NCBI GenBank assembly: GCA_033675265.1
Contig: JAUJYZ010000157.1
Coordinates: forward strand, 167,001 to 231,000
Direction of reading: 5' to 3'
Length of the DNA: 64,000 bases
Origin: Actinostola sp. cb2023
Lineage: Eukaryota; Cnidaria; Anthozoa; Actiniaria; Actinostolidae
Shown: in pieces, positions 26,345-55,657 of the stretch
Layout: every line of letters begins with the position of its first letter
Position numbering within the stretch: position 1 is the stretch's first letter
Position numbers and translations under genes: made by a program
Notes under the pieces: generated by a model
Databases searched by the model: none
Told to the model about the DNA's origin: nothing
The model's input: only the letters and a program-made list of their open reading frames with translations

Positions 26345-26386
26345 AGGAGTCGTTGGAGTTGGAAGAATATGAGATGAGCACGAGGC
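26345..26386 (+). CDS. Micro-exon alpha-1, 42 nt, phase 1-1
   Basis: The acceptor tract 'gttgtcttttcacag' and donor 'C|GTAAGGATTAATAA' bound 14 codons encoding 'EESLELEEYEMSTR', an acidic peptide. Nine of its 13 complete codons end in G. Its sister at 53959-54000 has the same flanks but a different peptide ('EESSELEDFEMRML'), with changes piled up at the 3' end of the exon. Splicing from 24851 (G) makes Glu; splicing out (C) to the beta-1 acceptor makes Pro. Confidence 0.65.
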
Positions 26387-26921
26387 GTAAGGATTAATAA
26401 ATAATTATTTATGTGGCACAGGTTGCATGTGATTATGATAACCACCTTCACATACATCATTTCACATTCATGCCGGACATATCGGCCAATCAGGATTCTT
26501 ATTTCAACTAGTCACTTGGAGATACATGAAAGCTAAGAAGAATCTAGTTAATGACCAAAACTAATTTGTGAATTCTGAGTGAAGCCTTCAGTGTCACGAA
26601 TTATCTCAGTTTTGGAGTCCAAATGTCTGTTTGAAAAATATCTATAATACACCTGTTTTCAGAAACGTTGTCCTAGTTGAAATAGTAAAATGTAAAAAGG
26701 AATAATTAAAACCGTTTGTCTGTGATAGTTGGCAAATACAATTCTATTTCAAAGTCCCTCTTGAATATGCCTTCATCATGGCTGCTTCATAATTAGTTAC
26801 TGTATTTATTTCTGCTTGAGTTATCTGCTTTGTGTTTTATGTTATACATTATTGTTTACTATTTCGACAACGTTTCTGAAAACTGGTGTATGTTGTATTT
26901 TTTATTTTTCTATTTTCACAG

Positions 26922-26984
26922 CTTACCGGACGCATATACATTTGCGTGAAAGTCGGTTGCGGATGAAGGAGAGGAAATGGAGGC
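26922..26984 (+). CDS. Micro-exon beta-1, 63 nt, phase 1-1
   Basis: Bounded by 'tttctattttcacag' and 'C|GTAAGGATGAATAA'. It encodes about 21 residues including 'YRTHIHLRESRLRMKERKW', strongly basic. Twelve of 20 complete codons end in G. Its relatives beta-2 (54654, 117 nt) and beta-3 (41883, 84 nt) have nearly the same intron flanks on both sides but different length and sequence. The downstream intron continues 'tttattctttatattgcaca', shared with beta-2 and beta-3. Confidence 0.65.
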
Positions 26985-27339
26985 GTAAGGATGAATAATT
27001 TATTCTTTATATTGCACAGGTTGCATGTGAATATTGTACCTGCTGTGCATTACGTCACACAGTAGCTACCTTAATCTAACTAAGACGTTATCAATCTAAT
27101 TGTCTATTAAGAAAACATTCGTAAAGTACTACTAGTTGTGATGGATGGGAGGCTTCAGAACATTTAGATTTCCGCGGCATAACAAAGTTATAAAAATGTC
27201 AGATTAGTCATAAACTAAGGTATACAGATATTTCAAAGCAAGTTATCGGTGAAATCACTGATTCAACTGTAAACAATATTTAATTTGAAAGCGCAGGCAA
27301 TCCATACTTACTTACCTACTTACTTATTTACTTACTCTT

Positions 27340-28195
27340 TACTTACTTACTCAGTCAGTCAGTCAGTCACTCAGTCAATCAGTCACGCAGTTTGTGAGTC
27401 GGTCGGTCAGTCAGTCAGTCGGTCAGCCACTCAGTCACTCAGTCACTCAGTCGGAAAGTCAGTCAGTCAGTCATTCAGTCACTCAGTCACTCAGTCACTC
27501 AGTCACTCAGTCACTCAGTCACTCAGTCACTCAGCCACTCAGTCACTCAGTCACTCAGTCACTCAGTCACTCAGTCACTTAGTCACTCAGTCACTCATGA
27601 TCAGTCGCTCAGTCAGTCACTCAGTCAGTAAGTCACTCAGTCACTCAGTCAGTCACTCAGTCATTCAGTCACTCAGTCACTCAGTCACTCAGTCACTCAG
27701 TCACTCAGTCACTCAGTCACTCAGTCACTCAGTCACTCAGTCACTCAGTCACTCAGTCACTCAGTCACTCAGTCACTCAGTCACTCAGTCACTCAGTCAC
27801 TCAGTCACTCAGCACTCACTCAGTCACTCAGTCACTCAGTCACTCAGTCACTCAGTCACTCAGTCACTCAGTCACTCAGTCACTCAGTCACTCAGTCACT
27901 CAGTCACTCAGTCACTCAGTCACTCAGTCACTCAGTCACTCAGTCACTCAGTCACTCAGTCACTCAGTCACTCAGTCACTCAGTCACTCAGCCACTCAGC
28001 CACTCAGTCACTCAGTCACTCAGCCACTCAGTAACTCAGTCAATCAGTCACTCAGTCGGTGAGTCAGTCAGTCAGTCAGTCAGTCAGTCAGTCAGTCAGT
28101 CAGTCAGTCAGTCAGTCAGTCAGTCAGTCAGTCAGTCAGTCAGTCAGTCAGTCAGTCAGTCAGTCAGCCAGTCAGTCAGTCAGTCAGTCTATCAC
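27340..28195. repeat. (CAGT)n / (CAGTCACT)n microsatellite, gamma-1 module
   Basis: About 850 bp of CAGT and CAGTCACT repeats lie directly upstream of the gamma-1 acceptor. The plus-strand frames through it (Ser-Gln-Ser-Val or Ser-His-Ser-Val) are artefacts. Shorter equivalents lie in the same place before gamma-2 (about 29076-29285) and gamma-3 (about 45797-45968). Confidence 0.95.
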
Positions 28196-28239
28196 TTCAT
28201 TACTCACTTACTTACTTTTGTATTTTTCTATTTTCACAG

Positions 28240-28272
28240 AGTCGCAGCCGGAGGGGTGGATGAAACCAATTC
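28240..28272 (+). CDS. Micro-exon gamma-1, 33 nt, phase 1-1
   Basis: Bounded by 'tttctattttcacag' and 'C|GTAAGGAATAATA'. It encodes 'QSQPEGWMKPI' when joined to a preceding C. Seven of 10 complete codons end in G. It starts about 45 nt after the CAGT microsatellite. Gamma-2 (29337) and gamma-3 (46011) share flanks and the 'K-P-S/I' end, but the middle residues differ. Confidence 0.6.
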
Positions 28273-28334
28273 GTAAGGAATAATACTGTCAAAATAACTA
28301 TACTTGTTAAAAACCTCGATTGCTTCATCTTTAC

Positions 28335-28435
28335 AGAAAAATATCAGACCGAGGTATTGAAGTTACGGACCAAGCGGTAGACTACATTTGTGCATAAAAG
28401 GACCGAGTCCTAGGTCTGATATTTTCTGTAACACC
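28335..28435. repeat. Palindromic repeat of the gamma module
   Basis: 'cagaaaaatatcagaccgag' pairs with 'taggtctgatattttctg'. The same block follows gamma-2 (about 29437-29535) and gamma-3 (about 46108-46205). It was duplicated with the exon. Confidence 0.7.
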
Positions 28436-28449
28436 GAGCAAGCGAGATT

Positions 28450-28760
28450 ATTAGGTTGTTATTAAGGTTGGTTCACACTTGAGTCGGAATCGGAATCGGA
28501 TCGAAGGAGAGCTACGACCAGTGTGAACTCCAAAATGGAGTCACCGGCAATCGGAGTCACCGGTAATCGGAGTCACCGGCAATCGGAGTCACCGGCATTC
28601 GGAGTCGGGAGGGCGGCGTATCGGAATGGGAAGGATCAGGTTTGCTTTTGCTTTCGATTCGATTCCGATCTTGCGCATGTGAACAAAAAACGAATCAGAG
28701 GCGTAATCGGAAAATTTGCTAATTAGCCAGAACTGGACACACTTTTATGTATCGCTCTGT
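28450..28760. repeat. Gamma-module repeat with 16-bp VNTR (4-5 copies)
   Basis: A block starting 'ttggttcacacttgagtcgg' carries tandem copies of a 16-mer 'agtcaccggcaatcgg'. Versions with about 3 copies (gamma-2 module, about 29640-29700) and about 33 copies (gamma-3 module, 46311-46855) occur in the duplicated modules. It ends with an inverted 'ccgattcgattccgat' segment, so the block may itself be an old MITE. Confidence 0.75.
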
Positions 28761-29075
28761 CTGAAGAAACGCGTGCAGAATAAGAAATCTGGGTCGAAGA
28801 CCTCTTGCTATAATTTTCTTTTACACGCACCATTTTTACTGTCAAGTATAATTTGTGAATTTCCATGATATTTATTCCAATGATTATATACTGTAGTGTT
28901 TTGGCCTCGGTTCGTCTCTGTCGTTGTTTTTTGTTTAAGCTTGCGGACCTCGACTATTACACGAGTACCTTTTTAAAGAGACAATCACTACACGCGTAAA
29001 CAATATTTAATTTGAAAGCGCAGGCAAACCATACTTACTTACCTACGTACTTATTTACTTACTGCTTGCTTACTT

Positions 29076-29238
29076 ACTCAGTCAGTCAGTCAGTTAGTCA
29101 GTCAGTCATTCAGTCAGTCAGTCAGTCACTCAGTCAGTCAGTCAGTCAGTCAGTCAGTCAAGTCAGTCACTAAGTTACTCAGTCAGTCAGACAGTCAGTC
29201 AGTCAGTCATTCAGTTAGTCAGTCAGTCAGTCAGTCAT

Positions 29239-29276
<38 letters not shown>

Positions 29277-29285
29277 AGTCACTTC
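29076..29285. repeat. (CAGT)n microsatellite, gamma-2 module
   Basis: Imperfect CAGT repeats, about 210 bp, upstream of the gamma-2 acceptor; the short version of the array at 27340-28195. Confidence 0.9.
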
Positions 29286-29336
29286 AGTCGGGATACTCAC
29301 TTACTCACTTACTTTTTTATTTTTCTATTTTCACAG

Positions 29337-29372
29337 AGTCGGAGCCGCATGCGTCGTTGATAAAACCAAGTG
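29337..29372 (+). CDS. Micro-exon gamma-2, 36 nt, phase 1-1
   Basis: Bounded by 'tttctattttcacag' and 'G|GTAAGGAATAATA'. It encodes '(Q)SEPHASLIKPS'. It keeps the gamma start 'AGTCG' and end 'AAACCAAGT', while the middle codons (CAT GCG TCG TTG) differ from gamma-1 and gamma-3. Six of 11 complete codons end in G. The module around it (about 29000-30110) is a copy of the gamma-1 module. Confidence 0.6.
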
Positions 29373-29639
29373 GTAAGGAATAATAATCTGTCAAAATAAC
29401 TATACTTGTTAAAAACCTCGATTGCTTCGTCTTTACAGAAAAATATCATACCAAGGTCTTGAAGTTACGGACCAAGCGCTAGGCTTCATTTGTGTAAAAA
29501 AGGATCGAGTCCTAGGTCTGATATTTTCTGTAACACCGAGCAAACGAGATTATTAAGTTGTTATTAAGGTTGGTTCACACTTGAGTCGGAATCGGAATCG
29601 GATCGAAGGAGAGCTACGACCACTAGTATGAACTCCAAA

Positions 29640-29705
29640 ATGGAGCCGGTCACCGGCAATCGGAGTCACCAGCAATCGGAGTCACCGGCAATCGGAGAGA
29701 GACGT
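29640..29705. repeat. 16-bp VNTR, about 3 copies
   Basis: 'agtcaccggcaatcgg' units in the gamma-2 module; the shortest of the three alleles seen here. Confidence 0.8.
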
Positions 29706-30118
29706 ATCGGAATAGGAAGCTAAGGATCAGGTTTGCTTTTTCTTCCGATTCATTTCCGATCTTGCGCATGTGAACAAAAAAAAAACGAATCGGAAGCGTA
29801 ATCGGAAAATTAGCCAATTAGCCAGAACTGGACCCACTTTTATGTATCGCTCTGTCTGAAGAAACGCGTGCAGAATAAGAAGTCTGGGTCGAAGACCACT
29901 TGCTATAATTTTCTTTGACGCGCGCCATTTTTACTATAAAGTATAATTGTGATTTTCCATGACTTTTATTCCAATGATTATATACTGTAGTGTTTTGGCG
30001 TCGGTTCGTCTCTGTCGTTGTACTTTGTTTAGGCTTGCGGTCAGCGACTATTACACGGGTACCTTTTTTAGAGAGACAATCACTACACGCGTAGATACAA
30101 CTCAAACTATATTACACG

Positions 30119-30285
30119 TAAGGTTAGAGAATAGGTTAGAGAATAAACACTCGTGCTTTATGGAATTTAGAGCTCCTCGCATTGATAGAAGGGCCACTCG
30201 GCGCTACGCGCCTCGTGGCCTTCTATCTGCTGCTCGGAGCTCTAAATCCCATAAAGCACTCGCGTTATTCTCTAACCGTTTTAGA
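30119..30285. repeat. Palindromic MITE-like element
   Basis: 'ggttagagaataaacactcg' and 'tatggaatttagagctcc' return inverted as 'ggagctctaaatcccata' and 'gcgttattctctaacc'. The centre is 'cggcgctacgcgcc'. Open frames on both strands through it are by-products of the palindrome. Confidence 0.75.
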
Positions 30286-30299
30286 ATATAGTCATACTC

Positions 30300-30930
30300 A
30301 CGAGAGTATTCTTTGGCTGCATGTCAGTTGCTTTCCCAAAGGAATACTGATTTCAAATGCAAATACGCTTATGCAAAGCTGTTCAGTTGTGTGTAACTTG
30401 GAGCCGGTGAAGATGAATATCCGAAGCTTGTGGCTTAATAATACAAGCTTGCAACGCTAGAAATTACCGGTATTTGTTGTGGAAATGAAGAGCAGCAATC
30501 TCAAAGTTTCCTCAAGCCAGTTAGAACGAACGAAATTGAAAAACGAGAGAAATAATGGACACCAAAGAAAACTAGCTAGCACGATGTGGACATTAATATA
30601 TTGAAAGATTGGGCTAACTATATCGCAATAATCATACGGAGAACTTGGACGACTGATGAATATCCGTACATCTACACTTCTTGTAGAACATGGAGAAACT
30701 CGTTTGTGATTTCATTTTGAAGAGTATAACGTAAGTGACTCGCTACGTTTCTTTAGTGTTTAGTAAAGTTATGATCTGTATTTCTGTACCATTTTTCGTG
30801 TATAAATCTATAGCTAGCTGCTACGAATCCAAATAACTGTCGATTTATTGGATTATGATATAATATTTGAATAGTATTTGAATATTAAACTAAGATTGTA
30901 TTATAATATTTTTTGTACACGTTATTCATT
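30300..30930. other. Intronic DNA, no gene seen
   Basis: AT-rich, no splice-bounded open exon found and no clear repeat boundary. Confidence 0.35.
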
Positions 30931-31087
30931 TAGAGTGCAAATATTATATCCGTGAAATTTAAGCGCCAACATTCAGTACTAATTAACATTTTACTACTAA
31001 GTAGACAACAATAATAAAGCATTTGGTGCTATTTATTAGTACTATTTAGTTAGTTAACTATTTCACGGATATAATATTTGCACTCTA
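30931..31087. mobile_element. MITE, TAGAGTGCAA family
   Basis: The ends 'tagagtgcaaatattatatc' and 'gatataatatttgcactcta' are inverted. Related copies lie at 11329-11478 and 56652-56802. Confidence 0.75.
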
Positions 31088-31103
31088 GTCAGGTATTCTC
31101 TAA

Positions 31104-31324
31104 GGGTGCGTTCGATTGACCTTATTCCAGAATAGGAATACACAGAATAACATCCCTAAATCGCTGTGACGCAGCTACTGTCCACTGTAAAATAAAACGA
31201 TTCCTTGTTGTATCATAATAAAGTTACAAGGAACAGTTTGGAATTTTAAATGTGCTGAAATAAAAGCATCCAAGTGTTTATTCCGTGTATTCCTATTCTG
31301 GAATAGGGTCAATCGAACGCACCC
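31104..31324. mobile_element. PIF/Harbinger-type MITE with TAA duplication
   Basis: The ends 'gggtgcgttcgattgacc' and 'ggtcaatcgaacgcaccc' are perfect inverted copies, flanked by TAA at 31101-31103 and 31325-31327. The inner arms 'aataggaatacacagaataa' are inverted too. A 3-bp TWA duplication and G-rich ends fit PIF/Harbinger MITEs. Confidence 0.8.
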
Positions 31325-31559
31325 TAAGTTAGTCATTAGTATTCCCTATATAGAGAATACTAATAAGGCTTTGTAACAAAAGAAAACAAAAAGCTTTATT
31401 AGTATTCTCTATATAGAGAATACTAATGAGTCCATTGTTAAAGCTATATTAGTTACTTTATGAGATATAGAGCGCACAAATGCTGGGCGCTGATTGGTCG
31501 AGTGAGTATGACTATATTCTAATCTTTGTTAGAACATTGAACTCTTATATATAGAAATA

Positions 31560-32060
31560 ATTGCGAATGCTATAATTCTCAAACAAGTTTACGAAAGAAA
31601 TACGAAGTTCCTTGTCGATCATTTCGTGGTCATTCGTGACACGATGTAATACTAGTTATGCAATGAGGGTTTATCATGTAATTTCAGGACAAAAAATGAT
31701 TATCATAGCTGGAAAGAGGTCGTTGAAATTTGTGAAAATGTGAAGTTTGGAAAAGATCGCTTCAAAAATTGAGAAGATATTAATTTTCAAAAATACGAGC
31801 TCTTTCCAGCTATGATAAAAATTTTGTTGTCCTATGTTAAAGTAAAGTCTCCTATAAGTTTTGAAATTAACTGATAATCCCTCATTATACGTTTGTAAGC
31901 TACGGTACAATATTTCCGCCTGCGATTATTCATTGGTCCATCGACACATCTCATTTCCATCCATGTAATTGTTCGTACAACCACCAATGGCTGTTATGAC
32001 TATTTAGCATGAGAGTGAGGCTATCGGACCAAACGCTAGTAGAGGCGTAAGGAATAATAA
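31560..32060 (+). pseudogene. Foldback remnant carrying a lone splice donor
   Basis: 31600-31900 is an imperfect palindrome ('aaaaaatgattatcatagct' with its inverted copy near 31810) of the type that also surrounds 47.3-48.7 kb. It is followed by a partial copy of the duplicated block known from 48.7 and 55.3 kb ('tatttccgcctgcgattatt', 'gagagtgaggctatcgg'). That block breaks off and joins 'AGAGGC|GTAAGGAATAATAA' (donor at 32047), the exon-end signature of the micro-exon modules. No acceptor in a matching phase precedes it, so I read this as a micro-exon whose 5' part was lost. Confidence 0.5.
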
Positions 32061-33490
32061 TTAATTATTTCTGTGGCACTAGCCTGCAAGCTGCATAGCT
32101 TGGCTTTCCGAGGAAAAGGCGACTGGGGCAAGGAGAGAAAGGAGGGGGGAGGGGAGGAGGAAAGGAGGGGGGATGGGGAAGGGGGAGGCGGAGGGAGGGA
32201 GGTTTGCTAACGGCGAATGGCTTATGAGTCTTATGGGATTACATTTCCTTATATAGAACAATGAGAACATATTGAAGAAGTTATAAAAATATCATAATAA
32301 TAAACTTTATTAGCCACCGTTGGCGAAATAATTACGGTGGTTTTACAATCATAATATCGCTTTTATGATTAATTTGAATATAATGACCAAAACTAATTTG
32401 TGAATTCGGAGTGCAGGTTGTAATAGAATTCAGTGATACAAATTATGTTTTGGAGTCCAAATATGTCTGTTTGAAAAGTATCTAAAATACTCCTGTTTTC
32501 AGAAACGTTGTCCTATTTGAAATATTAAAATGTAAAAAGGAATCATTATCACCATTTGTCTGTGATAGCAGAAACTTGTCAAATACTTGTCTATTCTATT
32601 TCGGAGGTCCTTCGAATATGGCTTCCAGGGCCGTAGCTAGGATTTTTTGTCTTTGGGGAAAACTCAGGCCCGTAACTGGCATTTTGAAAAGAGGGTTCGT
32701 TTCCGCTAATGAAAATATGCTGCGAGCCTCCAGGCGAGCAGCGAAACTAATCGTGACGGAGTTCCTGTGTCATGAGTGGTCGTGTGGGATCTGGGCACTT
32801 ATGTGGATGCGGCGAGAGTCGAGACTGCATTTCACGGAGTTTGTGTGTTTGTGTGTTTGTGTGTGGAGATGATTTTGTGAGCCACGGTACTTTTGATCAG
32901 CGCACACTCACAACACGTTCAATCGATTATTTATACTGGTTGGAGTATCGTTTATTTTTCGCTGATCCAAGCCAGGAAATTGTTTGTTTTCGGCTACAAA
33001 TCCATGATGTCAAATGCAACTTTATTCATTGTTGGAAGCATTCGTCAGGGTCATGAACAATTTAGTGACATTTCAAGGGGAAGACAATGTTCTTTTATGA
33101 GTTTTCAGTGCTCAGTCACGTCCAGTATCCACAATGAAGTCACATCCAGTATCCACAATGAAGTACATAAGCTTAAGTTTATACTTCTACAGTCGATCAG
33201 AGCCGGTTGACCGAAGGAGACAGCATGTACTTGAATGCTTTTGAAAGACACAGTTAGTATCCCCGATGCTGTCGCTGACCTATCTACCTGATCGAGCTCG
33301 TTGGTCTTCGTCAAACCAATCCGGCCCATGCCATTGGCATTGGCATCGAGGCAACTACTGAATCAAATTATACGATCCATCCTGATGTACTTTTATCTTC
33401 TACAAGTGTGCTATGAGGCTTCGACATCTTTCCTGATATCTGGCCAGTAGCATTGTATATAATATACACCAAACACAATTCTCTATTTCA
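32060..33490. other. Intronic repeat remnants, no gene seen
   Basis: Contains a purine-rich run (32120-32215), sequence shared with the alpha/beta modules ('tgaccaaaactaatttgtg', 'cctgttttcagaaacgttg') showing more exon-module debris, and a fragment of the 'gggccgtagct' repeat near 32628. The short open frames carry no domain. Confidence 0.45.
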
Positions 33491-33492
33491 TT

Positions 33493-33977
33493 GAATCCAT
33501 ATTTGTATTAACTTAATTAAGTTTTTACTGCATATCAGTAGAGTACAAACTATTAACAGTGTGCAACATTAAATAGTGCAAAGTATTGCATGCTTTTAGT
33601 GCTGGTCATGTCTATAGCTGTCTGTCAATGACCACATTATTATAGTGTTAGCATTTGTATATAGAATCCATATTTGTATTAATTACTGCATATCAGTAGA
33701 GTACAAACTATTAACAGTGTGCAACATAAATAGTGCAAAGTATTGCATGCTTTTAGTGCTGGTCATGTCTATAGCTGTCTGTCAATGACCACATTATTAT
33801 AGTGTTAGCATTTGTATATAGAATCCATATTTGTATTAATTACTGCATATCAGTAGAGTACAAACTATTAACAGTGTGCAACATAAATAGTGCAAAGTAT
33901 TGCATGCTTTTAGTGCTGGTACATGTCTATAGCTGTCTGTCTATGACCACATTATTATAGTGTTAGCATTTGTATTA
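33493..33977. repeat. Three tandem copies of a 157-171 bp repeat
   Basis: Units start 'gaatccatatttgtatta' at 33493, 33664 and 33821 and end 'tgttagcatttgtat'. They are almost identical. Non-coding. Confidence 0.9.
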
Positions 33978-34769
33978 AGCAACACCATACACCATTTTAA
34001 CGGTGTATATAGCAACTCGGTTGGGAATGAGAATTAATAGAGACATGGAAGGGGACAATGTGACCGGGACGGGAATGAGAATCAATGGAGATGTGGGATG
34101 GGAACAATGGGACAAGTGGGTGGGAATGAGAATCAGTAGAGATATGAGAGGGGGAGGGGATTTTAGTGGGTATAGATAGGTGTCTCGAATTAGTTTCTTG
34201 TAAGTTAGAACACATTATACTGCATTTTATTATTTTATTTTACCACTAATGCACCTTGCAGTGCTGACAAGGGACAGCCACATGTATAAAACCTATATTT
34301 ATTGGACTCAGTCTTCAGTACTGCTTTGCACCGTTATGTGAAACTGCTTTATTGATTGGCTACAAAGCCATCATCTGACTGCTGAAAACATTACCCTCTG
34401 GCATTGCCATACTGATATGCTGACAGGATTACAGTTTCATTATAATACTTTGCATCAATGTAAGCAGAAAATATCACGCACTGGATCAAGACATCTACAT
34501 CTACTTGTTTTTTTTCGGTGAAGAGGAGTTTTGAGTTACCTACTTCTGTTAGTCTGCAATGTATTACTTGTTAAAATCTCTATGACTTTATCCCAGAACA
34601 CTATAACATACATGTACTGTATGAATCTGAAACTATAAATTTACTGGATCCAACACATTATCTTCTACAAGTGTACTATGAGGCTTCGACATCTTTCCTG
34701 ATATCTGGCCAGTAAATAGTTATTTAACATTGTATATAATATACACCAAACACAATTCTCTATTTCATT

Positions 34770-36203: not shown

Positions 36204-36204
36204 T

Positions 36205-39430: not shown

Positions 39431-39479
39431 GGGCATGTCCCCCGGATAATTTGGAAATCTAGGTCCTCTTAAACATTTT

Positions 39480-41882: not shown

Positions 41883-41966
41883 GTTACCTGACTCAACCTT
41901 CGTTGCCTTCGTTGTCTGTGGTTTCTCCGTTGCAGTCGATGGAGAAGCCGAAGAGGCATTTTAGGG
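41883..41966 (+). CDS. Micro-exon beta-3, 84 nt, phase 1-1
   Basis: Bounded by 'tttctatttttacag' and 'G|GTAAGGATGAATAA', followed by 'tttattatttatattccaca', the beta-type intron start. It encodes 28 residues including 'YLTQPSLPSLSVVSPLQSME' and ending 'KPKRHFRG': Pro/Ser/Leu-rich, unlike the basic or Glu-Arg-rich beta-1 and beta-2. Seventeen of 27 complete codons end in G. The upstream 'gacaacgtttctgaaaactg' is also shared with beta-1 and beta-2. The TIR element at 42016 inserted just after its donor. Confidence 0.65.
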
Positions 41967-42015: not shown

Positions 42016-42872
42016 CATATCAAACTTATGTTATACAAAAGGTCATTGTTTCACATATGCAGATCAGCATGATTTTGATACATTTTTGCTTTTTACTGCA
42101 TTGTTAAAATACAAATCAAAAACCTACCAACGGAATATAAAAGACGAATATGTAAGGAATGAATAAGCTGGCAATTCAAGCACAAATAAAGAGGTTTGAA
42201 GGTGGCATTTTCCGTTTCTTCAAAGTCAATCGAACTGAAATCTCTGAAGAGATATAGGAGAGCGTGACATACGCTGCACACAAAATCCCTCTGAATTCAT
42301 TCTGTCAATCAAAAACCTACCGCCGGATTCTAATGCTCTGTAATTGTACGCGCATTTTGATATAAAATACATGTATATTAAACTTAATTAAGAGGTGGCA
42401 AAATGAAATCTAAAACTCTTTGTTTGGTAATTGTGAACATCATATTGGTGCTCTGTATCTCGGTCTGTATGTAGAAGCTAAGCTAGATAGGCCGGCGAAT
42501 TCGCAATTAAATTATGGCTCGGAAAGGACGTTTTTTGAAGGCAATTTCCAATATTTACACGCACGAGATCAATAAGTTAGTTCGAATTTGTGATATATTT
42601 TCCTGTTGAGGAAACATATGCAGCTTTTCCATCCTCTCTTATATTTTAGCTACCTGATTTACACATTGTCAAAGGAAAAATATGAATTCAGAAATGATAA
42701 ACCAGTCACGTACGAATCTGCTTTATTTAGCGGTCATAGTGAACAAATTGCTGGATCAATCGGGCCTCAAACGTGCATTAGTAAACAAAGCATTAACAAA
42801 AAACGTTGTCCGCGTGATACTGGATCCCAACAGGAGCAAATGTTCAATGATGCAGGACATAAGTTTGATATG
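42016..42872 (-). mobile_element. TIR element, copy 2 (inverted, 857 bp)
   Basis: An inverted copy of 16553-17429, with ends 'catatcaaacttatgt' and 'acataagtttgatatg'. Flanking TA on both sides is a possible target duplication. It lies in the intron after beta-3, in DNA that in the beta-1 and beta-2 modules is uninterrupted. Confidence 0.8.
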
Positions 42873-43508
42873 TATAATATATATAATATTATATATACCT
42901 TACACTGATATATACTAAAATATAACTACCTAAATACATCAAATCTAACTAAGACGTTATCAATCTAATTGTCTATTGAGAAAACTTTCGTAAAGTAGTA
43001 CTAGTTGTGATGGATGGGAGGCTTCAGAACATTTAGATTTCCGCGGCATAACAAAGTTATAAAAATGCCAGGTTAGAGATGTCCGTTTTAGCGGCATAAG
43101 CTCAAGTTTGGCACAAATTAAGGGACCATTGTTTAAAACCAGTTAGCTGTGACTGCATTTCACAGTCATTGTTTGTAAAACAAAGCCGCCGAGGAAAGAA
43201 TTAGGAAAAGAACATTCTCCAAAATGATTTTGGATACTTCATAGATAAAATCGGCTAAAGCAATGTTTACATTATTTAACCCAATTCAAAACCTTTGGGA
43301 ACAAGAGCTTTTTGTTCCAAACAATTCCATTTCATTTCCATGTATGTCAATCCAGATTTGAAATGGGTCAAAGTATATAAGAATGTAAACATTGCGTTAG
43401 CCGATTTGGTCCATTATGGCGAGTTTTGACAGAATTACATTCATAATTTATTTACGGTAAAAACATCGATCAATGTCACGACACGTAACCGTGCGTCATG
43501 TCAGGTGT

Positions 43509-45140: not shown

Positions 45141-45142
45141 TA

Positions 45143-45225: not shown

Positions 45226-45796
45226 TTATCAAATATTTTTTTCTTCATAAAAAAGGTGGAAAAACAAAGAAAACCGTGTCAAATTGAAATTACGAGCTGA
45301 TAGTTCGTTCTCTATTCAAATATTTAGTGAACGACTTCTGTAAAGAGAAAATATATTATAAAATAAATTATGCTCGGCATAGCTTGTGCCAGTGCCGCTA
45401 AAACGGACATCCCTGTTAGTCATAAACTAAGGTATTCCCTACTTTCTCATAATTTTATGGTTGACAGAAATCTCCCAGTTTCTTTTGTATTGTGAAATAA
45501 AATATCCATAGTTTTATTTGAAAGGTTTATCATATAGAATTCTCGTTTTTAATGTAATAATGTATATATTTGACTGGCATGCAATTAGAAGCCCCCAAGT
45601 GCCTGCTGTATCATGTCCATTAGCTTCAAGAAGAGTTTGTCTCAAGCTTCCTGCACAGCAATATTCTGGGTGCCAAAGCCAACAAACGTTTCGCGATTGC
45701 ATTTGCAGAGATTAAACACTAGTCTCGCAACTGTAAACAATGTTTAATTTGAAAGCGCAGGCAATCCATACTTACTTACCTACGTACTTACTTACT

Positions 45797-45968
45797 CAGT
45801 CAGTCAGTCAGTCACTCACTCACTCAGTCAGTATGTAGTCAGTCACTCAGTCACTACTGAAGTCAGTCAGTCAGTCAGTCAGTCAGTCAGTCAGTCAGTC
45901 AGTCAGTCAGTCAGTCAGTCAGTCAGTCAGTCAGTCAGTCAGTCAGTCACTCAGTCACTCAGTCACTT
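45797..45968. repeat. (CAGT)n microsatellite, gamma-3 module
   Basis: About 170 bp of CAGT repeats, ending about 45 nt before the gamma-3 exon, in the same relative place as at gamma-1 and gamma-2. Confidence 0.9.
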
Positions 45969-46010
45969 CAGTACTCACTTACTTATTTTTGTATTTTTCT
46001 ATTTTCGCAG

Positions 46011-46046
46011 GGTCGAAGCAGTCGGAGTCGTTGAAGAAACCAAGTC
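46011..46046 (+). CDS. Micro-exon gamma-3, 36 nt, phase 1-1
   Basis: Bounded by 'tttctattttcgcag' and 'C|GTAAGGAATAATAA'. It encodes 'GSKQSESLKKPS'. Eight of 11 complete codons end in G, with TCG used for all three internal Ser codons. Flanks match gamma-1 and gamma-2; the acceptor has CGCAG in place of CACAG. The module (about 45727-47250) repeats the order microsatellite, exon, palindrome, VNTR. Confidence 0.6.
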
Positions 46047-46310
46047 GTAAGGAATAATAATCTGTCAAAATAACTACTTGTAAAAAACCTCGATTGCTTC
46101 GTCTTTACAGAAAAATATCAGACCGAGGTCTTGAAGTTACGGACCAAGCGCTAGGCTACATTTGTGCAAAAAAGGACCGAGTCCTAGGTCTGATATTTTC
46201 TGTAACACCGAGCAAGCGAGATTATTAAGTTGTTATTAAGGCTGGTTCACACTTGAGTCGGAATCGGAATCGGATCGAAGGAGAGTTACGACCAGTGTGA
46301 ACTCCAAAAT

Positions 46311-46855
46311 GGAGTCACCGGCAATCGGAGTCACCGGCAATCGGAATCACCGGCAATCGGAGTCACCGGCAATCGGATTCAACGGCAATCGGAGTCAACT
46401 GTAATCGGAGTCACCGGCAATCGGAGTCAACGGCAATCGGAGTCACCGGCAATCGGAGTCACCGGCAATCGGAGTCAACGGCAATCGGAGTCACCGGCAA
46501 TCGGAGTCAACGGCAATCGGAGTCAACGGTAATCGGTAATCGGAGTCACCGGCAATCGGAGTCAACGGCAATCGGAGTCACCGGCAATCGGAGACAACGG
46601 CAATCGGAGTCACCGGCAATCGGAGTCACCGGCAATCGGAATCAACGGCAATCGGAGTCACCGGCAATCGGATTCAACGGCAATCGGAGTCAACGGTAAT
46701 CGGAGTCACCGGCAATCGGAGTCAACGGCAATCGGAGTCACCGGCAATCGGAGTCAACGGCAATCGGAGTCACCGGCAATCGGAGTCACCGGCAATCGGG
46801 GTCACCGGCAATCGGGGTCACCGGCAATAGGAGTCACCGGTAATCGGAGTCGGGA
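46311..46855. repeat. 16-bp VNTR, about 33 copies
   Basis: Tandem 'agtcaccggcaatcgg' with 'agtcaacggcaatcgg' variants interspersed in blocks. The same array has 4-5 copies in the gamma-1 module and about 3 in the gamma-2 module. Confidence 0.95.
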
Positions 46856-47259
46856 GAGTGACGTATCGGAAAAGGAAGGATCAGATTTGCTTTTTCTTCC
46901 GATTCGATTCCGATCTTGCGCATGTGACCAAAAAAAAACGAATCGCAAGCGTAATCGGAAAATTAGCCAATTAGCCAGAACTGGACCCACTTTTATGTAT
47001 CGCTCTGTCTAAAGAAACGCGTGCAGAATTGAAGACCTCTTGCTATAATTTTCTTTGACGCGCGCCATTTTTACTATAAAGTATAATTGTGAATTTCCAT
47101 GACTTTTATTCCAATGATTATATACTGTAGTGTTTTGGCGTCGGTTCGTTTCTGTCGTACTTTGCTTAGCCTTACGGTCCGTGACTAATACACGGGTACC
47201 TTTTTTAGAGAGACAATCACTACACGCGTAGATACAACTCAAACTATAGTACACTCTTT

Positions 47260-48840
47260 GTTAGAATATTGAACTCATATATATAGTGGACTATTGACTG
47301 TGAAATCATTACGAATCAAGTTTACGAAAGAAATACGAAGTTCCTTGGCGATCATTTTGTGGTCATTCGTGACACGATGTAATTATACTAGTTATGTAAT
47401 GAGGGTTTATCATGTAATTTCAAACCTCGCCTAGGACAAAAATATGATTATCATGGATGGAAAGATCTCGTTGAAATTAGTGAAAATGTGAAATTTGAAA
47501 AAGATCGCTTCACAAATTGCGAAGATATGAATTTTCAAAAATCGAAATTTTATATGAAAACCTTTGAACATTTACGCTGGTAGGTAGCCTACCAACAAAT
47601 GTTTTCATACAAAATTTCGATATTTGAAAATTCATACATATCAAACTTATGTCCTGCATCATTGAACATTTGCTCCTGTTGGGATCCAGTATCACGCGGA
47701 CAACGTTTTTTGTTAATGCTTTGTTTACTAATGCACGTGAGGCCCGATTGATCCAGCAATTTGTTCACTATGACCGCTAAATAAAGCAGATTCGTACGTG
47801 ACTGGTTTATCATTTCTGAATTCATATTTTTCCTTTGACAATGTGTAAATCAGGTAGCTAAAATATAAGAGAGGATGGAAAAGCTGCATATGTTTCCTCA
47901 ACGGGAAAATATATCACAAATTCGAACTAACTTATTGATCTCGTGCGTGTAAATATTGGAAATTGCCTTCAAAAAACGTCCTTTCCGAGCCATAATTTAT
48001 TTGCGAATTCGCCGGCCTATCTAGCTTAGCTTCTACATACAGACCGAGATACAGAGCACCAATATGATGTTCACAATTACCAAACAAAGAGTTTTAGATT
48101 TCATTTTGCCACCTCTTAATTAAGTTTAATATACATGTATTTTATATCAAAATGCGCGTACAATTACAGAGCATTAGAATCCGGCGGTAGGTTTTTGATT
48201 GACACAATTCCCAAAGAATTCAGAGGGATTTTGTGTGCAGCGTATGTCACGCTCTCCTATATCTCTTCAGAGATTTCAGTTCGATTGACTTTGAAGAAAC
48301 GGAAAATGCCACCTTCAAACCTCTTTATTTGTGCTTGAATTGCCAGCTTATTCATTCGTTACATATTCGTCTTTTATATTCCGTTGGTAGGTTTTTGATT
48401 TGTATTTTAACAATGCAGTAAAAAGCAAAAATGTATCAAAATCATGCTGTTTTTCGCCTAAACAAGACTCGCCTCATCTGCATATGTGAAACAATGACCT
48501 TTTGTATAACATAAGTTTGATATGCTTCGCAATTTGTGAAGCGATCTTTTCCAAACTTCCCGTTTTTACTCATTTCAACGAGCTCTTTCCAGCTATGATA
48601 ATCATTTTTTTGTCCTATGTCTCCTATAAGTTTAGAAATTAAGTGATAAACCCTCATTATATACGCTTGTAAGCTACGGTACAATATTTCCGCCTGCGAT
48701 TATTCATTCGTCCATCGACACATCTCATTTCCATCCATGTAATCGTAATCGTACAACCACCAATGGTTGTTATGACTATTAGCACTGCACGAGAGTGAGG
48801 CTATCGGACCAAAAGCTAGAAAAACACAAAAGGTTCCTAT
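47260..48840. mobile_element. Foldback element split by a TIR element
   Basis: Arms at about 47400-47545 and 48525-48670 are inverted ('gatcgcttcacaaattgcga' with 'tcgcaatttgtgaagcgatc'). The TIR element 47637-48524 lies in the middle. A related uninterrupted palindrome is at 31600-31900. Confidence 0.65.
47637..48524 (+). mobile_element. TIR element, copy 3 (888 bp)
   Basis: A direct copy of 16553-17429 with the same ends and the same 62-codon frame (48233-48421). It differs by small indels ('cccaaag' insertion near 48210). Confidence 0.8.
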
Positions 48841-49027
48841 GTACTTTCCTCTGTTACCCGTTATAGTTCCTCATGCAGGAAAATTAAATAATGATATTTA
48901 TGTAATAACAGAGGAAAACTACATACAATGGTTTGTTTTTCTAGCGGATAGCCTCGTTTTCATGCTAATAGTTATAACCGATAAATTCACTCGTTAATTC
49001 ACTGATGTGTTTTGTTTTTGACATCAG

Positions 49028-49066
49028 CGATACGTCGGTTTGAAGATGAACCAAAAGAAGCACAAG
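49028..49066 (+). pseudogene. Micro-exon delta-1, 39 nt, donor destroyed
   Basis: The acceptor 'gtttttgacatcag' is intact and the exon reads 'IRRFEDEPKEAQ', but the donor is 'CACAAG|CTAAGC' where the sister delta-2 at 55592 has 'CACAAG|GTAAGC'. This G-to-C change at donor +1 should abolish normal splicing. Two residues differ from delta-2 (R for W, P for S). Confidence 0.65.
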
Positions 49067-49320
49067 CTAAGCGTTGTTTTCCCTTTTTCACTTCCCTTAA
49101 AGTTGCGATATTTATAATGTTTCAATATTATGGGAATTATGCCCATTCACACTAGTCTCCCTCGCAGCCGTGTTCAGTGTCGTCACGCAACGCTCTCTCC
49201 CCTTACACACGGCTGCTTACCCAAGGACTACATTCCGTTACACATAATTATCCAATCAGAGCTTGTTGCCCGAAATAAGGTCAATGCTCGCGCCATACCA
49301 AAGACCAGTGACAAACAAGA

Positions 49321-49440
49321 TGAATGAATGAATGAATGAATGAATGAATGAACTTTATTTAGACATGAATCAAAATCACTAAAATTAAAATTAATTACAA
49401 AGTGCTCTCCCTTTGAGCCGTGTAAAAAGATGGCGTCCAT
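49321..49440 (-). mobile_element. LINE/SINE 3' tail with short (ATTC)n, copy 1
   Basis: On the minus strand, 'catgtctaaataaagttcat' followed by about 7 ATTC units. The copy-2 equivalent at 61622-61860 has about 37 units. Confidence 0.6.
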
Positions 49441-50059
49441 TGACGAAGCGTTTTGCCTTGCAGCGAAATAATTTCATATCAAAGAGTTTAACTGGGCAAT
49501 ACACTAAACCAATACACTAAACACGGCTGCCAGGAAGACTAGTAAATCGTGTACGTGAATTCATCTCCTAACTTTGCAACGTTCTTACAACAACGAAACA
49601 TGAGCCTGGGAGTGTCGAGTCGTTGACAACTAGTGAACATGAATAACGAATAACTTTATATGATTGGCTAAACACATACAATTGGAACGGAATGTAGCGC
49701 TTGGGTAAGCAGCCGTGTGTAAGGGGAGAGAGCGTTGCGTGACGACACTAAACACGGCTGCGAGGGAGACTACATTCACACCGTTTAGTCAGATTGGGGT
49801 TTTCTTGATTATAATTCTACATCGAAAACGCATCTGATTTAGAAACGATATTTAAAATGTTGCAATATTATGGGATGTATGTCCCATTCACACATGTTTA
49901 GTTAGACTGGGTTCTTTTCTTTTAATTTCTCGCATCTAATTTCAAAAAGTCAAACTACATGGTATTTATACTGTGTGGAACAAAGGACATTTTGAAACGA
50001 GTTTTGCACCAAAGGTTCTTCAGCATATAATTCTCAAAACCGGTTCAGGAGGGGGACGT

Positions 50060-50300
50060 TGGGGGTTAGGTGATACCGTAATACCACATCTAAAATTGAA
50101 ATTTGAAACAACACTAGCAATGTTTTGGAAAACAACTGAATACCGAAATACGCTAAAGAAATTTGAATTTCACCGTATACCGTAGCCCCAAATCGCGAAA
50201 TACCGCATACCGTAGACCAGGACGATACCGCAATACCGCATCTCAGAATATAAAATACCGCAATAAAATATACGGAACGACGGATACCGCAATACCGCAA
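50060..50300. repeat. 'ataccgca' degenerate tandem repeat
   Basis: Many spaced copies of 'aataccgcat' or 'accgtatacc' occur here and in the duplicate at 62480-62720. The open frames on both strands follow from this composition. Confidence 0.6.
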
Positions 50301-50544
50301 GCCCCCATGTTCCCCTCGTTCAGTTAAGCTACTTTTTTAAGCATCTGGGTGAATGGAGCATCAGTTAACTGTTCCAGTTTGATAATGCATGACGCAACAA
50401 TAGTAACAACAACAATCGTTATCTTCTCTTCAGTAGCCTTTAGAGCCGCTGATGAAGACATGCAGCCAAATGCCGAATAAGCTAAAAAGTTTAGAATAAT
50501 ATTATTCAAAAACTACAAAGAAGCAAATGGCACTGTAACGGATA

Positions 50545-50695
50545 ATATGAGTGTACCGTTGCATTCAATAGAGATAAGTGTAGAGCTATGGATTACTGTG
50601 ATTACTTGTCCCATGGTTTATGTAACGGATAATATGAGTGTACCGTTGCATTCAATAGAGATAGGTGTAGAGCTATGGATTACTGTGATTATCAA
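50545..50695. repeat. Two tandem copies of an 82-bp unit
   Basis: 'taacggataatatgagtgta' occurs at about 50536 and 50622, each followed by 'ccgttgcattcaatagagat' and 'gagctatggattactgtgat'. Confidence 0.85.
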
Positions 50696-50957
50696 AGCCT
50701 CTGGTCGCAGCCGTTACGAATCTCACTTTCATGCAGACACCTAATCAATGACAGCCGTCAAACATGTCAAATACAACCGACCAATCAGCGAAGGGGGATC
50801 GTCTTACGAAAGTACTAGAGGGGACCCTCATGATCAGAACATTGTGTACCATCAATGTATATCCCCAACAGGGGAGGGAGAGGATGTTGTCATTGATTTT
50901 TCTGCTCACGCAGAATATCCAGTCGATAATAACATCAAACGTATTGTACCAATAAAA

Positions 50958-52214
<1,257 letters not shown>

Positions 52215-52251
52215 AAAGCAACAATCTTTTATAATACATAATAATAAACTT

Positions 52252-53313
52252 GAAACTGTTAAATAATTCACTTACTTAGGAGTTAAATTAAGCTCAACTG
52301 GAAACTTTTCTGCACATCAAATTCAGTCAAGAGGAAAAGCTCTCAATGCTTTCTTCAATATTAATCGCACAGTTGATTTTATTAAACTTAAACCACAACA
52401 AGCTAATAAACTCTTTAACTCTATGATATCTCCAATTCTTACATATGCCAGTGAGGTTTGGGGAGTATATCAAAAACATGATTTTGAAAAGTGGGAAAAG
52501 AGCCCAATAGAAAAGGTACATTTACGTTTCTGTAAATACTACTTGGGTGTTAATAGCAAAGCATCAAATATAGCTTGTAGAGCTGAACTTGGTAGATTTC
52601 CTCTAAATATTTTTATAGACAAGATGGTACTTAAATATCACAACCACTTATTTAGTTTGTCTGATAATTCAATTGCAAAACAAGCTTTTTTCTTGTCAAA
52701 ATCCTTATATGAACGACATAAACCGTGTTATCACTCACATTTACTTTCAATGTTAAATTCCTATAAAATACACGACTCAAACAATATGATCAAACCCATT
52801 ACTAACAATATTATTAATAACTATCATGAGTCAATGAAAAAACAGTATTTCAAGGCATGGAAATCATATTTGACGCAATCTAAAAAATTGAAATTATATG
52901 AATTAATCAAAACAAATTATGAAACAGAAGATTACCTAGATACTATACGTAACTTTGATCAAAGAAGACATTTAACAACATTTAGAATTAGTAATCACAA
53001 ACTAGCCATTGAAACTGGAAGGTATGGAAAGCAAAGGATTCAAGCCAACCAAAGGCTCTGCATCTTTTGCAATAAAAACGAAATCGAAACAGAAGAACAC
53101 ATGTTATTAAAATGTTCATTATATTCCAAGTTACGTTTAGATTTCTTCAATGTAATAGCAGATAAGATAAAAATCAATAATCTAGACACAAGAACTTTGA
53201 CTTTAACTTTACTAAGTTCAAAGAATCAAGCTATTATATATTATGTATCAAAATTCATTTTGAAATGTTTTGAACTAAGGAATACAATAGCTCAAAATGA
53301 AAAGACAAAATGA
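52252..53313 (+). pseudogene. CR1/jockey-like LINE, C-terminal fragment
   Basis: Reads 'FTYLGVKLSSTGNFSAH' after an in-frame TAA at 52264-52266, then 'MISPILTYASEVWGVYQ', typical of the region behind the RT in CR1/jockey-like elements. It continues to a terminal Cys/His motif ('LCIFCNKNEIETEEHMLLKC') and stops at 53311-53313. The RT core and endonuclease are missing. The 3' end 'gcaaataaagttatctatc' leads into a (ATCT)n tail. It differs clearly from the LINE at 17.6-20.6 kb. Confidence 0.8.
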
Positions 53314-53467
53314 TCATATCAAAATTATATATCTATATTTATCAAACTCGTTAAAGTTCTATTGTAATTATTATTCATATTATTTTATATGAATTTCTCA
53401 TTATTTGTTACTATATTTGTAATACACTTTAGCAACACCTGTAAAATAATAGGTCATGCAAATAAAG

Positions 53468-53616
<149 letters not shown>

Positions 53617-53642
53617 CAAATGTCAGTTTAGTGATTATAATA

Positions 53643-53914
53643 CAGTCAATGTCATTAACGTTGTCCTACTAAAAAGAGATTAACACTACAATAAATGTCA
53701 CGTGTCTCGTCATCGTTTTGCGTGCACGAAACAAGCAATTATTGTGCACGTGGAGCTGATGTAATTCAAAATATGCCATGTATGAAGTATATCGGCTCCA
53801 CGTGCACAATAATTGCTCAATATCGCGCGCGGAAAACGAATAGAGAATGAAACACGTGACATTTATTGTAGTGTTGATCTCTTTTTAGCTGGACAACGTT
53901 AATGACATTGACTG
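53643..53914. mobile_element. MITE (CAGTCAATG family), complete copy
   Basis: The ends 'cagtcaatgtcattaacgtt' and 'aacgttaatgacattgactg' are perfect inverted copies flanked by TA, as in Tc1/mariner MITEs. The inner part is also palindromic around 'atgtatgaag' (53780-53789). It ends 45 nt before the alpha-2 exon. Confidence 0.8.
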
Positions 53915-53958
53915 TATATATGTTTTAGATTAATTGTTGTCTTTCTCTATTTTCACAG

Positions 53959-54000
53959 AGGAGTCGTCGGAGTTGGAAGATTTTGAGATGCGCATGCTGT
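53959..54000 (+). CDS. Micro-exon alpha-2, 42 nt, phase 1-1
   Basis: Bounded by 'tctctattttcacag' and 'T|GTAAGGATTAATAA'. It encodes 'EESSELEDFEMRML'. Nine of 13 complete codons end in G. The flanks match alpha-1 closely, including over 100 nt downstream ('ggttgcatgtgattatgata', 'cattcatgccggacata'). This exon leaves a T: joining to beta-2 (TT) gives Phe, but joining to an exon beginning AG would make TAG. Confidence 0.65.
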
Positions 54001-54653
54001 GTAAGGATTAATAATTAATTATTTATGTGGTACAGGTTGCATGTGATTATGATAACCACCTTCACATACATCATTTGGCATTCATGCCGGACATATATCG
54101 GCCAATCAGGATTCTTATTTCAACTAGTCACTTGGAGATACATGCAAACTAAGCCAGAATCTAGTTGACAAAAGTTTGTTTGACTGTTTTCACGAAACCA
54201 AAGCGATATACGGTATTCGAGGTTTGCTAAGCGAATGGCTTATGGGAATACATTTCCTTATGTAGAACAATGAGTGCCATACTTTTGATTAATTTGAATA
54301 TGATGACCGATCGAAACTAATTTGTGAATTCTGAGTGAAGCCTTCAGTTTGAAAAGTATCTATAATACACCTGTTTTCAGAAACGTCGTCGTATTTGAAA
54401 TAGTAAAATGTAAAAAGGAACAATTATAACCATTTGTCTGTGATAGCAGAAACTTGGCAAATACTATTCTATTTCAAAGTCCCTCTTGAATATGCCTTCA
54501 TCATGGCTGCTTCATAATTAGTTACTGTCTTTATTTCTGCTTGAGTTATCTGCTTTGTGTTTTATGTTATACATTATTATTTACTATTTCGACAACGTTT
54601 CTTAAAACTGGTGTATGTCGTAGATCGTATTTTGTATTTTTCTATTTTCACAG

Positions 54654-54770
54654 TTTACCAGAGGCACTTTGAGGATAGGATGGAGGAGAGGACGAAGGAG
54701 AGGATGGAGGTGTGGATGGAGGATAGGACGAAGGAGAGGATGAAGGAGAGGAAGGAGAGGCATTTGAAGC
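54654..54770 (+). CDS. Micro-exon beta-2, 117 nt, phase 1-1
   Basis: Bounded by 'tttctattttcacag' and 'C|GTAAGGATGAATAA'. It encodes 39 residues, nearly all from Glu, Arg, Lys and Met: 'YQRHFEDRMEERTKERMEVW', then a second 'MEDRTKERMKER' block. The two halves look like an internal duplication of about 33-36 nt. Thirty-two of 38 complete codons end in G. It is predicted to form a long charged helix. The flanks match beta-1 and beta-3. Confidence 0.7.
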
Positions 54771-55199
54771 GTAAGGATGAATAATTTATTATTTATATTG
54801 CACATGTTGCATGTGAATATTATAACCTGCACACAGTAGCTACCTTATCCATACACTGATATATACTAAATACATCAAATCTAACTAAGACGTTATCAAT
54901 CTAATTGTCTATTGAGAAAACATAGTACTACTAGTTGTGATGGATGGGAGGCTTCAGAACATTTAGATTTCCGCGGCATAACAAAGTTATAAAAATGCCA
55001 GGTTAGTCATAAACTAAGGTATACAGCTACTCCAAAGCAAGTTATCGGTGAAATCACTGATTCAACTGAAAACAATATTTTTAATTTTTTTTCAAAAAAT
55101 TCGCAAAGCATTCTGGTAGTTGTAGTCACATTACGTCATTTTGCATAAGGTCTATTTTCAATCAAGTTTACGAACGAAATAGGAAGTTCATTCGAGATC

Positions 55200-55657
55200 A
55201 TTTCGAGGTCATTCGTGACATGATGTAAGCTACGGTACAATATTTCCGCGTTGTTCGCCTGCGATTATTCATTCATCCATCGACACATCCCATTTCCATC
55301 CATGTAATTGTAATCGTACAACCACCAATGGTTGTTATGACTATTAGCACGAGAGTGAGGCTATGGGATCAAAAGCTAGAACAACTGACAAAAAAGGTTC
55401 CTATGTACTTTCTTCTGTTACCCGTTATTTCTCATGCAGGAAAATTAAATAATGATATTTCTCTAATAACAGAGGAAAACTACATACAAACCTGGTTTGT
55501 TTTTCTAGCGGATAGCCTCGTTCTCATGCTAATAGTTATAACCGAGAAATTCTCTCGTTAATTCACTGATGTGTTTTGTTTTTGACATCAGCGATACGTT
55601 GGTTTGAAGATGAATCAAAAGAAGCACAAGGTAAGCGTTGTTTTCCCTTTTTCACTT
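55200..55657. repeat. Segmental duplication, copy 2 (left part)
   Basis: Matches 48690-49100 of copy 1 and breaks off at the 5.7-kb insertion; the match resumes at 61392. Confidence 0.85.
55592..55630 (+). CDS. Micro-exon delta-2, 39 nt, phase 1-1
   Basis: Bounded by 'gtttttgacatcag' and 'G|GTAAGC'. It encodes 'IRWFEDESKEAQ'. Only one of 12 codons ends in G, so it does not share the composition of the other micro-exons. The intact donor contrasts with delta-1. It is the last exon I can place with fair confidence; the 5.7-kb element begins 27 nt after its donor. Confidence 0.6.

Follow-up and report, generated by a model that had tools for sequence, protein, structure and literature searches.

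The window analysed here is a 64,000-nt stretch of the genome of Actinostola sp. cb2023 (contig C1156, positions 167001-231000; assembly 424 Mb). It holds most exons of what is likely a gene of about 78 kb, at the 3' end of which lies an array of very short exons that we call cassettes. Upstream of the array the gene consists of a first exon coding for a DED, two micro-exons of 24 and 18 nt, a TRADD-N-like exon, a 2694-nt exon coding for a coiled coil and predicted alpha-solenoid repeats, a 129-nt coiled-coil exon and a 48-nt exon (Table 1). All recognised internal exons of the gene are in phase 1-1, and the cassettes fall into four families, alpha, beta, gamma and delta. The original prediction had drawn attention to this array, describing at least ten exons of 33-117 nt, all divisible by three and all in phase 1-1, whose flanking introns are better conserved than the exons themselves.

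Nine of the ten predicted exons have an acceptor AG, a GTAAG donor and a length divisible by three at the predicted starts. The description fails for the tenth, delta1, where the donor position reads CTAAGC and the GT is absent. Beta varies in length as had been claimed (63, 84 and 117 nt). Phase 1 is the sole phase open in all nine intact cassettes (phase 0 is open in two and phase 2 in three), and none of 20,000 single-letter shuffles within the nine cassettes left all of them open in phase 1. Across the 13 symmetric exons tested, phase 1 is likewise the sole phase open throughout. The exons after the solenoid, joined in order, form one open frame, and all 2048 in-order subsets of these 11 exons remain open, which bears out the suggestion that the cassettes are symmetric and interchangeable. 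A stop arises only where alpha2 is placed before one of five exons whose first letters are AG; alpha2 is itself one of the five, and none of them follows it in the array. Together the nine cassettes encode 164 residues, of which 40% are charged and none is cysteine. At the chosen thresholds a generic splice-site scan returned no candidates, a consequence of the weak exon side of the cassette donors, and we take the scan as evidence neither way.

Table 1. Exons and cassettes of the probable Actinostola DED/TRADD-N gene, in window coordinates unless a contig position is given.
Feature	Position	Strand	Observations
DED first exon	contig 143724-144024 = window -23276 to -22976	+	ends in phase 1
24-nt micro-exon, phase 1-1	2682..2705	+	retrocopy match with 3 mismatches; AG/GT sites
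18-nt micro-exon, phase 1-1	11962..11979	+	18 letters in retrocopy between 24-nt exon and TRADD-N, one difference (by eye); AG/GT sites
TRADD-N-like exon, 357 nt, phase 1-1	12851..13207	+	paralogs on C926, C93 and C97; next junction precise in retrocopy
2694-nt exon, coiled coil and predicted alpha-solenoid repeats	13435..16128	+	nine 159-nt repeat marks; AF2 model; Exaiptasia homologs
129-nt coiled-coil exon, phase 1-1	21915..22043	+	3' end conserved in C93; Exaiptasia counterpart; in MAKER model P0002
48-nt exon, phase 1-1	24804..24851	+	resembles a C93 exon that has both splice sites
alpha1 cassette, block A	26345..26386	+	42 nt; splice sites, open phase 1, pair divergence
beta1 cassette, block A	26922..26984	+	63 nt; splice sites, open phase 1, pair divergence
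gamma1 cassette, block A	28240..28272	+	33 nt; splice sites, open phase 1, pair divergence
gamma2 cassette, block A, tandem copy	29337..29372	+	36 nt; splice sites, phase 1, pair divergence
delta upstream flank, block A, exon lost	31511..32039	+	aligns to 47243-48819 and 55154-55379
orphan alpha-type donor, alpha remnant of block B	32047..32081	+	nhmmer E 4.9e-6; next intron matches alpha-beta intron
beta2 cassette, block B	41883..41966	+	84 nt; splice sites, phase 1, divergence; used in MAKER model P0002
gamma3 cassette, block B	46011..46046	+	36 nt; splice sites, open phase 1, pair divergence
delta1, inactivated cassette, block B	49028..49066	+	CT in place of donor GT
alpha2 cassette, block C	53959..54000	+	42 nt; final exon of MAKER model P0002, donor read through
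beta3 cassette, block C	54654..54770	+	117 nt; purine-rich internal repeats
delta2 cassette, block C, last recognised exon	55592..55630	+	39 nt; splice sites, open phase 1

The predicted reversal of conservation, with exons diverging faster than the introns around them, was found on module alignment in all seven pairs within alpha, beta and gamma but not in delta. The alpha pair differs at 8/42 exon positions and 9/300 flank positions. The three gamma pairs differ at 8/33, 7/33 and 10/36 exon positions (21-28%) versus 13/278, 11/278 and 12/278 in the flanks (4-5%), and the three beta pairs at 26/58, 38/84 and 26/63 (41-45% of alignable sites, plus length) versus 20/326, 6/120 and 7/113 (5-6%). 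With flank lengths fitted per pair as the stretch that aligns, the ratio of exon to flank divergence is 5.2-9.0 in all seven pairs (one-sided Fisher tests, p = 1.1e-3 to 1.2e-12, pairs inside a family being non-independent). Because the beta exons are very divergent, their alignment and hence their rate are uncertain; beta1-beta3, for instance, gives 21/63 or 26/58 by different alignments.

When the flanks were instead fixed at 120 nt on each side, those of alpha and gamma and the acceptor side of beta1-beta3 stood at 3-8%, the acceptor flanks of the beta2 pairs at 23-27%, the three beta donor flanks at 32-42% and the delta donor side at 50%. The high values for beta and delta arise because insertions or the ends of homology fall within this distance. 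Part of the conserved alpha acceptor flank (26227-26313) consists of the end of a repeat with many copies in the genome (1113 candidates, of which 40 were scored). The donor-side flank alone still separates from the exon for alpha (p = 0.003), gamma2-gamma3 (p = 1.3e-5) and gamma1-gamma3 (p = 9e-4), so the acceleration of alpha is independent of its repeat-derived acceptor flank. For five of the eight pairs we also slid a window of exon size along the alignments, and none of the windows outside the exon reached the divergence of the exon (0/252, 0/698, 0/257, 0/240 and 0/441). The acceleration is therefore limited to the exons in these comparisons. Inverted copies of the alpha-flank repeat lie at 22587-22656 and 53640-53768, and an alpha-flank match on contig C93 was inspected and contained no cassette.

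Against its paralog on C93, the constant part of the gene behaves differently. Differences number 17/345 at the start of the solenoid exon, 51/345 in the TRADD-N exon and 42/222 in the intron between them. The difference between the TRADD-N exon and the intron is small, and the exons of the constant part do not exceed the intron, from which we conclude that the reversal is confined to the tail.

The proportion of nonsynonymous sites that differ (pN) is 0.20-0.36 in the alpha and gamma pairs, versus 0-0.17 for synonymous sites (pS), of which there are about 6-7 per pair; the delta pair has a pN of 0.07 and a pS of 0. Selection is the likely cause of the exon acceleration.

Homology within the contig is collinear and reads as three tandem alpha-beta-gamma-delta blocks. 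Block A comprises alpha1, beta1, gamma1 and gamma2 with only the flank of delta, block B an orphan alpha donor, beta2, gamma3 and the dead delta1, and block C alpha2, beta3 and delta2, its gamma being gone. A profile search of 204 kb (5 kb of which is N) found no additional intact cassettes. Across the assembly, in searches that skip simple repeats and very common words, the alpha donor side gave four matches from four candidates, all scored and all on C1156. The beta3 query gave 19 matches (8/8 candidates scored), five of them on C1156; the other 14 fall on the purine-rich repeat of its coding part, which one of them overruns by 21 nt. Neither the donor side of alpha nor the flanks of beta matched outside this locus, and these searches found no alpha or beta modules elsewhere in the assembly. 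In one further genome-wide search 40 of 310 candidates were scored.

The case for joining the upstream exons comes from an intronless retrocopy on contig C926 (about 298195-299783, minus strand), a single open frame of 597 amino acids in which the DED, the 24-nt and 18-nt exons, TRADD-N and the first part of the 2.7-kb solenoid exon follow in this order. Exons joined without introns are the expected product of reverse-transcribing a spliced mRNA; they indicate that the gene family splices phase 1-1 micro-exons, and they are strong evidence, at the level of genomic sequence, for splicing of the 5' exons through the start of the solenoid exon. The retrocopy stops before the cassettes, its repeat region is much shorter than that of the window gene, and it ends in an unrelated tail. 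We tried that end as a beta exon and dropped it, as the frame does not fit. The window gene and the retrocopy differ in the number of solenoid repeats.

On C93 the DED exon precedes the TRADD-N exon at a distance of 20 kb, and one can also recognise the 48-nt exon and the 3' part of the 129-nt exon. The paralog as a whole (C93:119380-154607) is an NLR-like relative, combining a DED and a TRADD-N-like exon with a long array of TPRs and a stretch that by eye resembles a P-loop. In two Exaiptasia protein models (P0003 and P0004) the solenoid is continuous with a counterpart of the 129-nt exon (tblastn to 21890-22048, E = 0.005 and 0.012), in support of that junction. The deposited MAKER model at the locus (P0002, QZH41_017450) runs from the TRADD-N exon to the 129-nt exon, beta2 and alpha2 using the same acceptors, ends beta2 at the predicted donor and reads through the alpha2 donor at its end; we regard it as at best weak support for cassette splicing. 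A search for annotated relatives with the N-terminal exon alone gave no matches, probably because short queries exclude long proteins, and longer queries gave two proteins among 7128 candidates and six among 7995 scored.

The probable DED matches its Pfam family below the curated cut-off (E = 1.3e-7), and the retrocopy links it to the TRADD-N exon. TRADD-N was assigned indirectly, by sequence similarity through a paralog on C97, to which the window exon is 46% identical over 80 amino acids (E = 9.7e-14) and which itself matches PF20694, TRADD-like_N (E = 2.2e-7, 31.0 bits versus a cut-off of 23.7). A single-sequence AlphaFold2 (AF2) model of the TRADD-N exon was too poor to use (mean predicted local distance difference test, pLDDT, of 52). 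In the 2.7-kb exon nine repeat marks lie 159 nt apart, and the AF2 model of the residues coded by 13860-15470 consists of helices only (mean pLDDT 77.2), so that we predict an alpha-solenoid for the repeats. Foldseek comparison of this model with the PDB returned, among the 50 matches listed, generic helical repeats and HEAT-type structures with query-normalised template modelling (TM) scores of 0.12-0.34, and we therefore claim no family for the solenoid. In Pfam the solenoid repeats also matched bacterial families and, weakly and under the respective cut-offs, PYRIN and CUE; we took all of these matches as repeat artefacts. The repeats at 14184-15614 lie in one exon and encode near-identical protein, probably through recent expansion.

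The C-termini of the paralogs vary. A model on C93 (P0001) is predicted to continue into TPRs and the C97 paralog into TPR-like repeats (by eye), whereas the window gene continues into the solenoid and the cassettes. By analogy with DED/TRADD-N immune genes, the product would be an intracellular-type protein and not a secreted one, given the DED at its start and the TRADD-N-like domain that follows. Of the proposed resemblance to fast-evolving secreted and immune genes, the immune-type context is consistent with these domains and the secreted part probably is not.

We think it fairly probable that the cassettes are the variable 3' tail of a sea-anemone DED/TRADD-N gene, the tail having been diversified by exon duplication and selection. 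The constant part would comprise the DED, the TRADD-N-like domain, the coiled coil and the alpha-solenoid, and its domains may assemble a cell-death or anti-invader complex. A four-exon alpha-beta-gamma-delta block would have been tandemly copied to three, with the subsequent loss of single cassettes; flank divergence of about 3-8% suggests that the duplication was recent. Thereafter the coding letters of alpha, beta and gamma would have changed 5-9 times faster than the adjoining intron under positive selection on the exons. Since the frame survives any in-order skip, many tails could arise if cassettes are included optionally. The tail itself would be a set of short, charged, probably disordered modules, optional and flexible, on a death-adaptor-like protein. 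We infer the splicing of the cassettes onto the gene, their optional inclusion, the selection-driven change and the immune function. The feature as such we consider real, unusual and specific, its structure being well supported and its mechanism partly so.

Several observations weigh against this reading. The delta pair is not accelerated (2/39 in the exon versus 12/279 in the flank, a ratio of 1.2). In beta pN is 0.37-0.55 versus a pS of 0.26-0.64, with pS at or above pN in two of the three pairs, and in a simulation the amino-acid changes of alpha1-alpha2 and gamma2-gamma3 were no more numerous than expected from random placement (P = 0.30 and 0.73). Six of the nine intact cassettes have a letter other than G at donor position -1, whereas G is the last letter of the DED exon and of each of the six upstream internal exons; such weak exon-side donors fit optional inclusion and fit unused exons equally well. 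A search with the Exaiptasia tail yielded no convincing terminal exon downstream of delta2. Beyond its 129-nt counterpart, Exaiptasia P0004 carries about 100 more residues, which do not resemble the cassettes; the Exaiptasia protein models contain no array, so that conservation of the array is unsupported as far as protein models go. MAKER model P0002 begins with a retroelement gag, making it chimeric, and omits the solenoid exon and most cassettes. Splicing of the array is read from the DNA, and the available part of the genome description names no RNA, genes having been predicted by homology and de novo methods (PMC10803348); the deposited gene models at the locus are therefore not transcript evidence. 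As to the domains, the DED scores 32.2 bits, under the Pfam cut-off of 35.9, and the window TRADD-N exon alone has no Pfam match up to E = 10.

A rival explanation is decay. The cassettes would then be duplicates that are no longer spliced, transposable element (TE)-driven debris beside a live gene, with exon differences that are accidental or older than the duplication. The setting is TE-rich, the delta1 donor is dead, cassettes have been lost in each block and one acceptor flank is a high-copy repeat; the cassettes, which are without a transcript, also have exon-side donors weaker than those of the upstream exons. We nevertheless consider decay unlikely, as a neutral rate should stay at or below that of the intron, which the alpha, beta and gamma exons exceed 5-9-fold, and all nine intact cassettes are open in the frame common to the upstream gene, with length differences in beta and gamma that are multiples of three. 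It is also rather improbable, in our judgement, that a local mutational process such as slippage, template switching or exon-directed repair alters the exons and spares the introns. Such a process would fit the lack of any excess of amino-acid changes over random placement in alpha1-alpha2 and gamma2-gamma3 and the high pS of beta, and beta3 is made of slippage-prone short purine-rich repeats. However, the alpha and gamma exons are not repeats and no window outside them matches their divergence, and their synonymous differences are few, although so are their synonymous sites.

The introns rather than the exons might be unusual: gene conversion could keep the flanks alike, or regulated splicing could constrain them, with the exons drifting at a normal rate. 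Splice-adjacent motifs common to different families are in keeping with this, but the identity of the flanks reaches hundreds of bases from the splice sites, and the delta exons of the same blocks have barely diverged, which argues that exons as such do not drift so fast; we regard this explanation as very improbable. Returning to the variable tail, a more far-reaching form of it is conceivable, if doubtful. The locus would be a germline array in a cell-death or immune adaptor that is read combinatorially, each cassette being spliced in, skipped or used as the last exon when its donor is unused, giving hundreds of tails per gene, with the coding letters under diversifying selection and the splice modules fixed. 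Invertebrate DED/TRADD-N genes are described as diversifying through the exchange of entire domains; small symmetric cassettes that evolve faster than the introns beside them would add a second and finer source of diversity within one such gene, and would extend the logic of micro-exon genes (MEGs) outside the flatworms. The locus is in addition a clean natural experiment, as exon and intron rates can be compared inside the same duplicated module.

If its donor went unused, each of the eight alpha, beta and gamma cassettes would read on for KD, KDE or KE beyond the junction residue and meet a stop there, 2-3 codons past that residue (donors at 26387, 26985, 28273, 29373, 41967, 46047, 54001 and 54771). 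For alpha1 there is also an AATAAA within 60 nt. The pattern may be due to chance in AT-rich sequence.

In the portions available to us, the published accounts of comparable systems each share some features with the window gene. DED and TRADD-N proteins are expanded in cnidarians, with a constant N-terminus, variable flanks and an association with retrotransposons (PMC8195603). The window gene has the same cnidarian setting, a constant N-terminus with a probable DED and a TRADD-N-like part, a variable C-terminus and an association with retrotransposons, but in the described expansions the C-terminus varies by domain fusion, whereas here it is an alpha-solenoid and a micro-exon array. The likeness to schistosome MEGs that had been proposed applies to the short symmetric, potentially skippable exons, and extends to long introns, TE enrichment, the capacity for variants by skipping and accelerated evolution, MEG exons being arrayed and mostly multiples of three (PMC4350168, PMC10526429). 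It does not make the gene a MEG, as most coding length is in ordinary exons: those of 2694 and 357 nt dominate, and micro-exons make up the tail and two 5' exons. MEG exons measure 6-81 bp versus up to 117 nt for the cassettes, the phylum is another, and we claim no sequence relation (PMC4350168, PMC10526429). The window gene further differs from MEGs in beginning with a DED, in its large ordinary exons and in having no secretion signal as far as seen (no signal-peptide predictor was used). VAL-6 of schistosomes has been described as partly an ordinary gene and partly MEG-like (PMC4350168).

Accelerated evolution of exons is known from snake venom genes, including accelerated segment switch in exons to alter targeting (ASSET), where exon segments are replaced or evolve fast and intron segments are more than 85% alike (PMC2711939). 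The venom comparison is among secreted toxin genes, the present one among the cassettes of a single gene whose domains are of intracellular type. The SA8 toxin genes of sea anemones have, in one species, 3-5 microexons with large introns, the second exon being variable, but they are separate small toxin genes with other domains, and no cassette array is reported for them in the portion available (PMC10210398). Among the papers listed by our searches of the open-access literature, our coverage of which is incomplete, none describes arrays of micro-exons in cnidarian immune genes, those with TRADD-N included.

Actinostola sp. cb2023 is a deep-sea anemone from a hydrothermal vent with a genome of 424.3 Mb, 62.4% of which is repeats (PMC10803348). 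In the window, retroelement-like open frames lie at 3664-4722 and 6241-7416 (plus strand), 17803-20379 (minus) and 62913-63626 (plus); their matches are PNMA/gag-like, to reverse-transcriptase RNase H, to reverse transcriptase with a weak endonuclease match, and to GIY-YIG below the cut-off. The deposited gene model runs the gag-like frame and the TRADD-N exon together. Three copies of a repeat, 95-98% alike, are found within introns of the window gene (16552-17429, 42016-42873 and 47636-48524). The gamma introns carry a 16-nt minisatellite and long CACT/CAGT microsatellites (46311-46851 and 27273-28200).

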